This document shows positions 26,044 through 48,613 of a stretch of DNA of 64,000 nt, one piece after another. The stretch spans positions 6,057,501 to 6,121,500 of the forward strand of contig NZ_CP062229.1 of NCBI RefSeq assembly GCF_024707545.1. The letters are read 5' to 3'. Position numbers and translations under genes: made by a program. How positions within the stretch are numbered: the stretch's first letter is position 1; the number at the start of each line of letters is the position of its first letter. The notes beneath the pieces were generated by a model. It had not been told where the DNA came from. It was given only the letters and a program-made list of their open reading frames with translations, and made no database searches. The DNA comes from Mesorhizobium onobrychidis (GTDB lineage Bacteria; Pseudomonadota; Alphaproteobacteria; Rhizobiales; Rhizobiaceae).

Positions 26044-28425
26044 TCAGCCGGCGATTTTCGAGAAATCCGCAACCTGGTCGGTCGCTGCCCGGATGCGTGC
26101 CAGCAGTGCCAGGCGGTTGGCACGAACGGCCTGGTCCTCATCATTCACGAGAACGCGTTCAAAGAATGAATCAACCGGTTCACGCAACGCGCTAAGCGCC
26201 AGCATGGCGGCGGAAAAGTCTTCGTTGTGAATCGCTTGGCCGGCTTCCTTCTCGGCCTGATTCACCGCGGCAAACAGCGCTTTCTCGGCATCTTCCCGGA
26301 ATAGAGCCGGCTCAACACGTTCGGCGATCGTCGTTTTCTTCTTCTCTTCGGCGGCCAGGATGTTGGCCGCACGCTTGGTGCCGGCAAGCAGGTTCTTGCC
26401 GTCCTCGGTGTCGAGGAAGGAGCCAAGCGCTTGGACGCGGCGGACAATTTGAAGGAGATCGTCGTTGGACGATTGGCCAATCTCCCCCCTTGAGGGGGAG
26501 ATGCCCGGCAGGGCAGAGGGGGTCGTCTCGCGTGGATCGGCGCCCCACTCTGTCGCCTCTGGCGACATCTCCCCCTCAAGGGGGGAGATAGGGCGCGGCG
26601 CCAACACCGCATCTATCAAATCATGCCGCGCACCTTGGTCGCGGAGATAGACCTTCAAGCGGTCGTGGAAGAAGGCGAGGAGGTCGGAGCGGTAGATTTG
26701 CTCCGCCTTCCCTTCCAGCGTTGTAACGGCATTCTTGTCGAGATAGTTCGCCCACTCATAGGCGCTTCCGAAGATGGGTGTGAGCGCCAATCGGATACCG
26801 TTCTCGACCAGAATCCTCACCACCCCCAGCGCCGCTCTTCTCAGCGCATAGGGATCTTTTGACCCTGTCGGCTTTTCATCGATGGCCCAGAACCCGACCA
26901 GCGTGTCGAGCTTGTCGGCGAGCGCCACGGCCACGGATACCTGATCGGTGGGCACGCGGTCGGAGGGTCCCTGTGGCTTGTAGTGTTCTTCTATCGCTGC
27001 GATGGCGGATGGATGCTCACCTTGCAGCAGCGCATATTTGCGGCCCATGGCGCCCTGCAATTCCGGGAACTCGCCGACCACCTCGGTGGTGAGATCGGCC
27101 TTGGCCAGAACGGCGGCACGCTCGGCGCGCTCGCGGAGATATTTCTGCTCGACGTTCAGATCGTCGGCGGCCAGAAGCTTGCCATCGACGAAATTCGGCT
27201 GCTTCGACAACGTGTCAGCGATTTCGCCAGCCAGCCTCTTGATCCGCTCAACCCGCTCACCCTGCGTGCCGAGCTTGGCGTGGAAGGTGACGCCGAGATG
27301 GTCGAGGCGGGCCATGCGCTGGTCGAGCGGCTTCTTGAGATCGAGCCCGAACTTGTCCGCCGATGCCTGCAACTGGTCGAGGTCAGGCAGGTCGCCCTGG
27401 TCGGTCTTCCAGAAATAGAGCGCGTCGGAGAGACGGGCGCGCACCACCTTGCCGTTGCCGTAGGCGATCTCCTTGCCACCGTCGCTTGCTTCGATGTTGG
27501 CGGTCAGAATGAAGCGGTTGGAAAGCTCTTCATCGACGCCCTGCGGCCGCGTCACGAAGCACTTCTGGTTGGCGCGGATGGTCAGCCGGATCACCTCGGC
27601 TGGAATGGCGAGAAAGTCCTGCTCGAATTCGCCCATCAGCACGACAGGCCATTCGACAAGGCCGGACACTTCCTCGAGCAGCCCGTCGTCCTCGACCAGA
27701 TCGAGCCCGTTGGCGAAAGCGAGGTTCCTGGCGTCGGAAAGGATGATCTCCTTGCGTCGGTCGGCATCGAGCACGACCTTCGCCGCCTCCAGCTTGGCGG
27801 CATAGTCGTCGAAACGGCGCACGGTGATCGCGTCCGGCGCATGAAAACGGTGGCCGTAGGTGACATTGCCCGAGCGGATGCCGTCGATCTCGAAATCGAC
27901 CACCACCGGCTCCTCGGTTTCCGGGCCGAAGGTGCAGAGGATGGACTGCAGCGGCCGCACCCAGCGCAACGATCCGGGTTTCGCCGAGGCCGGCCCCCAG
28001 CGCATCGATTTCGGCCATGGAAAGCCGCGGATGATGCCCGGCACCAGCTCGGCGATGATCGCCTCGGCCGCCCGGCCCGGCTTCGCAATGTGGGCGACAT
28101 AGAAGTCGCCCTTCTTCGGATCGGCATGGACATGCGCCTCGGCGATCGAGGAGAGACCGGCCTTGCGCAGAAAACCCTGGACCGCCTGTTCGGGCGCATT
28201 AGTCGACGGCCCCTTGATCTCCTCGCTTATGTCCTTCGAGCGCGCGGTCACGCCGCGAATGTCGAGCGCCAACCGGCGCGGCGTCCAATATTCGCGCGCC
28301 GCCTCATACGTCAGCCCGGCCTCAACCAAACCGTCCGTCATCATCTTCTTCAGGTCGCCCGCCGCCTTGCGCTGCATGCGCGCGGGAATCTCTTCCGAAC
28401 GGAGTTCTAAAAGCAGGTCGGGCAT
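26044..28425 (-). CDS. glyS: Glycyl-tRNA synthetase beta subunit, with repeat-derived insert
   Basis: 793 residues (usual length about 690-750). It starts [20 protein letters not shown] as expected and shows MRWG and [13 protein letters not shown] blocks of the family, and the DALRxC-type anticodon-binding end ([20 protein letters not shown]). With GlyQ it forms the alpha2beta2 enzyme charging tRNA-Gly. Residues about 613-649 ([17 protein letters not shown] and following) are encoded by a palindromic repeat and are not family sequence; the frame is kept. glyQ lies 402 bases upstream on the same strand. Confidence 0.94.
26480..26589. repeat. Palindromic element inside glyS coding sequence
   Basis: Ends are self-complementary 23-bp hairpins (26480-26502 and 26567-26589) of the form ATCTCC...TTGAGG...GGAGAT, inverted relative to each other. 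The centre includes CCGGCAGGGCAGAGGGGG and TGTCGCCTCTGGCGACA. Translation on the glyS strand gives ISPLEGEM at one end and SPSRGEI at the other. The same end sequences occur in glyQ (29011-29154) and after rnhB (48427-48589). Confidence 0.88.
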
Positions 28426-28827: not shown

Positions 28828-29892
28828 CTAAGCCGCCAGTCCACCTGCCTGCGTCAGCAAGAACGCCTCCCCACAGGCTTTCGCCAGATTGCGAACCCGC
28901 AAGATATAGCTCTGCCGCTCGGTGACGGAAATCACGCCACGCGCGTCGAGCAGGTTGAAGACGTGGCTGGCCTTGATGCACTGGTCGTAGGCGGGAAATA
29001 CCAGGCGGTGGCTCCCCTCCCCCTTGAGGGGATGGCCAGACGAGGTCTGGCCGGGAGGGGTCGCTCGGGCAGTGCTCGACGTCCTACTTGCGGTGCCTTC
29101 TGAGGCAACCCCCTCTGCCCGCTTCGCGGGCATCTCCCCCTCGAGGGGGGAGCAGGGCGCGCCGGCATCGAGCAGCGCCTTGCACTCGGCTTCGGCGTCC
29201 TCGAAATGCCGAAGCAGCATCGCCGTGTTGGCGAATTCGAAATTGTGGCGCGAATATTCCTGCTCGGCCTGCAGGAAGACGTCGCCATAGGTCACCTTGT
29301 CGGCGCCCTGGCGGCCGTTGAAGTTGAGGTCGTAGACATTGTCGACGCCCTGCACATACATGGCCAGCCGCTCCAGCCCGTAGGTGAGTTCGCCCGCCAC
29401 CGGCGCGCATTCGATGCCGCAGACCTGCTGGAAATAGGTGAACTGCGACACTTCCATGCCATCGCACCAGCACTCCCAGCCCAGCCCCCAGGCGCCGAGC
29501 GTCGGGCTTTCCCAGTCGTCCTCGACGAAGCGGATGTCATGCAGAAGCGGATCGACGCCGATGGCCGCCAGCGAGCCGAGATAAAGCTCCTGCAGATTGG
29601 GCGGGTTCGGCTTCAGGATCACCTGGTATTGGTAATAGTGCTGCAGCCGGTTCGGGTTCTCGCCGTAGCGCCCGTCCTTGGGCCGGCGCGAAGGCTGCAC
29701 ATAGGCTGCGTTCCAACGCTTTGGCCCGAGCGCGCGCAGTGTCGTCGCCGGATGGAACGTGCCGGCGCCGACTTCCATGTCATAGGGCTGGAGAACGACG
29801 CAGCCATAGTCCGCCCAGTAGTTATGCAAGGTCAGGATCAGCCCCTGGAACGAGCGGCTGGGATGCATATGGGCTGGGATATCAACGGTCAC
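28828..29892 (-). CDS. glyQ: Glycyl-tRNA synthetase alpha subunit, with repeat-derived insert
   Basis: 354 residues from GTG 29892, chosen for the GAGG five bases upstream (ATG 29868 and ATG 29943 are alternatives). The class II core is clear: [59 protein letters not shown] and [20 protein letters not shown]. The usual length is about 300. Residues about 247-294 ([16 protein letters not shown] and following) come from a palindromic repeat and separate [12 protein letters not shown] from [20 protein letters not shown]. Catalysis of glycyl-adenylate formation should be intact because the insert is in the helical C-terminal part. Confidence 0.94.
29011..29154. repeat. Palindromic element inside glyQ coding sequence
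   Basis: About 144 bases, exactly 48 codons. The left end is CTCCCCTCCCCCTTGAGGGG and the right end CATCTCCCCCTCGAGGGG; between them lie GGCCAGACGAGGTCTGGCC (a hairpin) and CCCGCTTCGCGGGCATC. It belongs to the same family as the glyS and post-rnhB copies; on the glyQ strand it translates to [15 protein letters not shown] and ends HPLKGEGS. Confidence 0.85.
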
Positions 29893-29940
29893 GGCGGCCT
29901 CGACGGAGCGGCGGGATGCGGCACCTGTTGGATGAGGCCG

Positions 29941-29980
29941 CATGATCTTGTCCGAAAAGTCTGCAACTTTTCGGGATCAG
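29941..29980. repeat. Rhizobial-type hairpin in glyQ leader
   Basis: CCGAAAAGT-CTGCA-ACTTTTCGG (29952-29974) is a perfect nine-base stem with five-base loop, flanked by GATC on both sides. Very similar hairpins are scattered between genes in rhizobial genomes. Here it lies in the 5' leader of glyQ between its promoter and start. Confidence 0.6.
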
Positions 29981-48426: not shown

Positions 48427-48589
48427 TCCCCCCTTGAGGGGGAGATGGCCGGCAGGCCTGAGGGGGTAGCCGCGCGTGAAGCGCCAACCTCCTCTTTCAT
48501 TCGACGTATTATCCGATACCGCGTCGCGCCAGCCGAAGCGACCCCCTCTGTCGCCTTCGGCGACATCTCCCCCTCAAGGGGGGAGATTA
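48427..48589. repeat. Palindromic element after rnhB
   Basis: Left end CCCCCCTTGAGGGGGAGATG and right end ATCTCCCCCTCAAGGGGGG match the glyS copy almost exactly. Inner parts GGCCGGCAGGCCTGAGGGGG and CCCCCTCTGTCGCCTTCGG are also shared; the centre is about 60 bases of unique sequence. It fills the gap between convergent rnhB and atpF. Confidence 0.85.
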
Positions 48590-48613
48590 CCCGCTCAGCC
48601 GCTTTCGCCTAAC

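Follow-up and report, generated by a model that had tools for sequence, protein, structure and literature searches.

Palindromic repeats read in frame within the glycyl-tRNA synthetase subunits of Mesorhizobium onobrychidis and related bacteria

The glyQ-glyS locus and the insert in glyQ

In the 64-kb window analyzed here, i.e., the whole stretch of Mesorhizobium onobrychidis DNA under study, both subunits of glycyl-tRNA synthetase (GlyRS) are encoded by intact ORFs on the minus strand. They belong to a 7.55 Mb genome of two contigs, and the best relatives of the GlyQ protein are found in Mesorhizobium. Each of the two genes contains a palindromic element (Table 1). The glyQ element reads in frame as 48 residues, CSPLEGEM...KGEGS. 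According to an initial annotation, exactly 48 codons had been added to the gene. The 48 residues are indeed read in frame, but the distance from a conserved AG to the (F/L)PAYDQ motif is 54 codons with the insert versus 14 without it. The net gain is 40 codons, and the 8-codon linker of the empty alleles (ASNDNLAM and similar) is missing from the insert alleles.

Table 1. Features of the glyQ-glyS locus, in window coordinates.
Feature	Position	Strand	Basis or remark
glyQ, glycyl-tRNA synthetase alpha subunit, 371 aa, element-interrupted	28828..29943	-	ORF; Pfam PF02091; solved relatives 7eiv, 7yse, 7qcf
glyS, glycyl-tRNA synthetase beta subunit, 793 aa, own palindromic insert	26044..28425	-	ORF; Pfam PF02092 + PF05746
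Palindromic element in glyQ (GlyQ residues 264-311)	29011..29154	-	In-frame translation, blastn, allele comparison, RNA fold
First palindrome core in glyQ (peptide SPLEGE)	29134..29152	-	
Inner hairpin GCCCGC/GCGGGC in glyQ element	29117..29131	-	Stem retained through paired changes in other carrier clade
Inner hairpin GGCCAGAC/GTCTGGCC in glyQ element	29034..29052	-	6 nt shorter in several genomes, stem and frame intact
Second, degenerate core in glyQ (peptide PLKGE)	29019..29031	-	
Palindromic element in glyS (GlyS residues 613-652, site S610)	26470..26589	-	Inverted repeats, in-frame translation, RNA fold
GlyS hypervariable segment, residues 548-584 (alignment cut)	26674..26784	-	

Both inserts had also been assigned to C-terminal helical parts of the subunits, a placement that did not hold. 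In an AF2 model of GlyQ, which was used for the helix-loop-helix contrast only (mean pLDDT 57.6, shallow alignment of 50 rows), residues 267-308 have pLDDT values below 50 and lie between helices 241-261 and 315-334. The GlyQ insert is thus a predicted unstructured linker between two C-terminal helices, and the model suggests that it would be disordered in the real protein as well. In GlyS, the copy is located outside any helix, in the stretch that separates PF02092 from the anticodon-binding domain. Inverted repeats are present in both element stretches, and the predicted RNA folds have energies of -85.3 kcal/mol (z -3.3; glyQ element, positions 29005-29160) and -87.7 kcal/mol (z -8.2; glyS element, positions 26470-26600). 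Among the glyQ carriers, alignment pair 31/43 of the inner stem is CG in 10 cases, UA in six and AG in one, and pair 33/41 is CG in 11 and GC in six. Since the two carrier clades differ in both halves of the stem, the hairpins appear to be kept as well, and the paired change may represent one single event.

GlyQ and GlyS were sampled from 139 of the 145 other genomes of the genus in addition to the window, which provided 140 GlyQ genes. The full repeat is present in 17 of these, always in frame, and one further gene has a single-core remnant. The figure of 17 corresponds to 18 long GlyQ gaps minus locus L143, which contains a 26-residue non-palindromic linker; eight rows that could not be parsed by pattern were read by eye as lacking an insert. 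This comparison of GlyQ lengths, proposed in the initial annotation, established that the insert is real, albeit with the smaller gain over empty alleles given above. L143 (G082), P0032, P0033 and P0041 have another, non-palindromic linker (..YKDNPLYG..) at the insert loop. The gap lengths of the inserts are 141, 150, 159, 162 and 165 nt, and the alignment gaps are 3, 6, 9, 12 and 15 nt. As a control, 47 two-core copies of the M. onobrychidis genome were measured from core to core; the remainders (modulo three) are 28/10/9, or 10/10/9 without the 18 copies of a dominant 108-nt class.

The insert and its flanks have similar pS values (0.27 and 0.29), whereas pN/pS is 0.45 in the insert versus 0.047 in the flanks. 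The constraint on the insert sequence is therefore relaxed, and a pN/pS of 0.45 leaves room for a weak function. The distances between inserts are correlated with those between the genes (Mantel r 0.77, reached in 0/2000 permutations). Because its divergence tracks that of the gene, the insert is old. Its distribution needs at least seven changes on the 133-genome tree described below, or nine on a GlyQ-only tree of all 140 genes; thus its inheritance is not simple, and loss, gain or exchange of alleles must be frequent.

Judging from the open and conserved frame, the GlyQ insert is probably translated. Alternatively, the segment could be absent from the final protein if the hairpin RNA were excised or skipped by the ribosome, a process for which very stable folds that bring the ends together would be well suited. 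Breaks in glyS might also point in this direction: in five of the 139 loci, the GlyS reading frame is divided among overlapping ORFs, two of them (L127 and L137) with N runs in the insert, and three (L135, L215 and L221) with a frame broken at an insert site, in L215 elsewhere too. These three broken frames could be due either to sequencing error or to a real frameshift. However, the frame is intact in 17/17 full GlyQ inserts with gaps in multiples of three only, shortened remnants remain in frame, and Rfam covariance models, self-splicing introns included, gave no match at gathering score in the 64-kb window. We therefore consider removal of the segment very improbable.

The repeat family and the reading frame of its copies

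The glyQ and glyS stretches have 57 and 136 blastn matches, respectively, in the M. onobrychidis genome. For the palindrome core, the pattern search gave 185 places per strand in 7.55 Mb (about 0.25 per 10 kb) versus 0 for a reversed control, and across 37 genomes of the genus, M. onobrychidis included, 1 to 322 cores per strand were counted, with 0 to 40 for the controls. Most copies consist of two inverted half units of about 45 nt each, whose cores lie either towards the inside or towards the outside of the pair, around a variable centre. A second two-armed palindromic element is located elsewhere in the window (48428-48590). By blastn, the glyQ and glyS copies match each other over about 50 nt within one arm, and SPLEGEM is common to both. 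By sequence, the two are members of one mosaic repeat superfamily but of different subtypes. The initial description of the glyQ insert as a second copy of the glyS element is thus partly wrong: superfamily, peptide and matching arm are shared, but the subtype differs, and the glyQ copy is old. Nor is the start CSPLEGEM shared with glyS, whose copy begins with ISPLEGEM.

Among the matches listed, at least five of 83 distinct sites in the M. onobrychidis genome are interior to a gene and in frame, with glyQ and glyS in addition. This is a lower bound, because the codon-score gene caller is conservative and left even the glyS copy unreported. The five host genes encode XdhC, a hydantoinase A-like protein, a UvrD/PcrA-like helicase, a molybdopterin oxidoreductase (NasA/nitrate reductase-like) and a dihydrolipoyl acyltransferase (E2), where the repeat lies in the linker. 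In locus L015, a palindromic insert is found in a uvrD/pcrA-like helicase gene (positions 1430-1548), between the DEYQDTN and GDDDQS motifs.

One reading frame prevails in the GlyS inserts, beyond what open frames alone would give: the first core is in phase 2, which yields ISPLEGE, in 35/35, 29/33 and 10/11 cases, tallies in which the carriers are related and not independent. Of 94 oriented genomic copies, 57, 43 and 57 are open in the three frames. Phases 0 and 2 are thus equally open, and filtering by stop codons was rejected as the sole cause of the shared SPLEGEM frame. The ISPLEGE frame might instead be favoured as the milder, acidic peptide.

Recurrence of inserts at four GlyRS loops

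The distribution of inserts was analyzed in the 133 genomes that have an intact copy of each gene, after leaving out L130 (GlyS cut by a contig end), L238 (no GlyS) and the five split GlyS loci. Inserts and remnants, scored by a motif rule, were found at one loop of GlyQ (15 genomes) and at three sites of GlyS, named by window residue: S292 (13, where the insert of L253 lacks a palindrome core and that of L256 is of another repeat type), S406 (38) and S610 (39). At least one of the four loops is occupied in 60/133 genomes. By the same rule, one in-frame remnant is present in GlyQ and 10 in GlyS. A tree built from 2769 insert-free columns requires at least 7 changes for GlyQ, 12 for S292, 22 for S406 and 18 for S610. 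All 20 cores in the 133 glyQ ORFs are at the loop, and in glyS 146 cores fall on the three sites and none elsewhere after the start codon; a further 26 precede the start in the stop-to-stop frame.

Two other synthetases served as controls in 81 genomes each, tallied by eye from match listings. For ValS, full matches without length change (2778-2781 nt) were obtained in 69 genomes; eight members of a divergent clade have a common longer form (2901-2904 nt) and lie outside this judgement, and four matches were cut, split or not found. For the first 727 residues of LeuS, 78 genomes were within 12 nt of expectation, one lacked 28 residues and two gave no match. No palindromic insert was detected in the 69 normal-length ValS matches or in this part of LeuS. 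In the repeat-poor genomes G062, G072, G092 and G130 there is no insert in GlyQ, nor in GlyS of the three whose loci were sampled. Double insertion into one enzyme had initially been judged unlikely by chance alone, and this assessment is borne out by four loops that are hit throughout the genus, and in some other genera as well, with none in ValS and LeuS.

A property of the DNA could contribute to this pattern, if the target sequence, transcription or inter-allele recombination caused the glyQ-glyS locus to attract or spread insertions regardless of protein tolerance. In 132 loci, the glyQ-glyS spacer contains 70 cores in 83 kb (in 40 genomes), glyS 145 in 307 kb and glyQ 19 in 134 kb, corresponding to 8.5, 4.7 and 1.4 cores per 10 kb, versus about 0.25 for the whole M. 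onobrychidis genome. Moreover, at three of the four sites, the core of the insert alleles is preceded by GCGCC-like bases. Part of the GlyRS excess may thus stem from the DNA of the locus itself, although the rich spacer is only partly telling because most repeat copies are located in spacers anyway. On the other hand, not a single core was found in the 396 kb directly downstream of glyS (3 kb for each of the 132 loci), and within the genes only the four loops take inserts. As the main cause, attraction by the DNA is therefore conceivable but unlikely. The initially suggested hot spot is supported for the enzyme with its four loops, and perhaps for the locus in view of the core-rich spacer.

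The initial annotation had also considered that the two peptides might interact, and a check for one, both or neither insert was part of its proposal. Such interaction or co-evolution across the subunit interface would fit the observation that all 14 carriers of the full GlyQ insert with an intact GlyS also have an insert or remnant in GlyS. However, 45 of the 133 genomes have a GlyS insert or remnant but none in GlyQ, 73 have neither, and the supported independent contrasts number only six (median p 0.25). With so few contrasts, co-occurrence is inseparable from kinship, and a correlation between the inserts, which is present in the raw counts only, was rejected. Furthermore, pN/pS in the GlyS inserts is 0.79-0.82 versus a comparison value of 0.10; they are close to neutral and encode a nearly unconstrained peptide. 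An interaction of the two peptides is accordingly hardly credible. The other option put forward, that they are tolerated, is supported by the pN/pS values, the predicted disorder and the in-frame remnants.

Outside the genus, only one of 119 genomes of the family (G224) has a long insert in the GlyQ loop, and the palindromic repeat there is of another kind. Among the best 120 GlyQ relatives, the loop is also occupied by other types of insert and by a tandem repeat. The tandem repeat (SSAEGTRG type) is present in P0101 and P0110, and P0039, P0052, P0055, P0080 and L373 have GlyQ repeats at two places, in the loop and at the C-terminus (LPLEGGGRREAAGGG type). The GlyS matches in 60 genomes from other genera are in some cases broken near query residues 295, 410, 530-547 and 575. 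Cored inserts at the three GlyS sites were found in 11 of 48 GlyS from other genera, several of them being of other repeat types, one per genus. This proportion is not a frequency, because the loci comprise the 30 best matches and 19 that were chosen mostly for broken matches (L365, with three ORFs, was excluded). As far as the sequences indicate, what is common across genera is the position in the protein and not descent from one insertion.

GlyS varies in a second way. Its hypervariable segment exists in 33 types of 9-114 residues among the 133 genomes (29 types if the five shortest are lumped) with 55-56 type switches on the tree, and contains no palindrome core. Within the four largest types, pN/pS is 0.23-0.60, indicating purifying selection, and long variable segments are also found in 25 of the 48 GlyS read from other genera. 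Rhizobial-family GlyRS might accordingly be a target of diversifying selection, driven by an antagonist that binds its surface, e.g., a phage factor, a toxin or an antibiotic, with captured palindromes and swapped GlyS cassettes as the raw material from which the loops are rebuilt. The many types and switches, the purifying selection within types and the lack of such length changes in ValS and LeuS would agree with this scenario. In contrast, pN/pS of the palindromic GlyS inserts is about 0.8 and not above 1, and the 73 genomes without any palindromic insert also argue against it. We know of no antagonist of the GlyRS surface, and regard diversification of this kind as rather improbable.

Known palindromic elements and the proposed origin of the inserts

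The closest known kind are the Rickettsia palindromic elements (RPE), which were reportedly described by Ogata et al. in 2000 and 2002. In a review, they are characterized as palindromic repeats of ~150 bp, some families of which have entered unrelated protein genes in frame and add an extra peptide to the product, and frequent in-frame palindromes outside Rickettsia are called conceivable (PMC10969869). The Mesorhizobium repeats resemble RPE by architecture: they are palindromic and located in frame within unrelated genes (glyQ, glyS, xdhC and those for the hydantoinase A-like, UvrD/PcrA-like and NasA-like proteins and the E2 linker). In contrast to RPE, they belong to another bacterial order and are G+C-rich, most copies are not interior to genes, and insertion has recurred at the same loops of a single enzyme.

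By host range and architecture, the repeats also resemble RIME, mosaics of palindromes that Osteras et al. are said to have described in 1995 as Rhizobium-specific intergenic mosaic elements. Both are dispersed mosaics of palindromic half units in a Rhizobiales host, here in both relative orders, but RIME are described as intergenic whereas the Mesorhizobium repeats occur within genes as well. A further article names RIME among the repeated elements of Rhizobiales (PMC2245857). With MITE and REP the repeats share that they are short, structured and dispersed. A target duplication of the MITE kind was recognized in none of the allele pairs compared by eye (10 for GlyS and 4 for GlyQ), where the linker is replaced, but old inserts may have lost theirs. 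Unlike REP/RAYT systems, the M. onobrychidis genome has no match to the Y1 (RAYT-type) transposase family PF01797, for which 5 of 14 control genomes were positive; a REP-type transposase was therefore rejected as the insertion machinery. Among the titles listed from an open-licence literature library, no report of palindromic insertion into GlyRS or of a hypervariable GlyRS was found.

The insert in glyQ is probably an old palindromic repeat that is translated as a tolerated loop, and the recurrence in GlyRS would chiefly result from permissive linkers. Long ago, a palindromic mosaic repeat of the RIME/MITE-like kind would have entered a surface linker of GlyQ, replacing eight codons, and since then diverged along with its gene. 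Transcribed and translated within GlyQ, it would form a flexible, disordered and hydrophilic loop between the two helices, where selection would maintain the frame and stop-free reading with little regard for the insert sequence. The repeats presumably land widely, and those that keep the frame in GlyRS linkers would persist. They would thus accumulate in this enzyme chiefly because four linkers, one in GlyQ and three in GlyS, are unusually permissive, and we infer that this permissiveness is the main cause of the recurrence.

In-frame palindromes, best known from Rickettsia, are found here in many genomes of soil bacteria, one essential enzyme of which has been colonized repeatedly, unevenly and at fixed loops by different repeats. 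The GlyRS loops represent a natural experiment that can tell which protein loops accept additional peptide, and the case bears on how selfish repeats turn into protein sequence. It also raises the question why, among the three synthetases examined, GlyRS is so variable.
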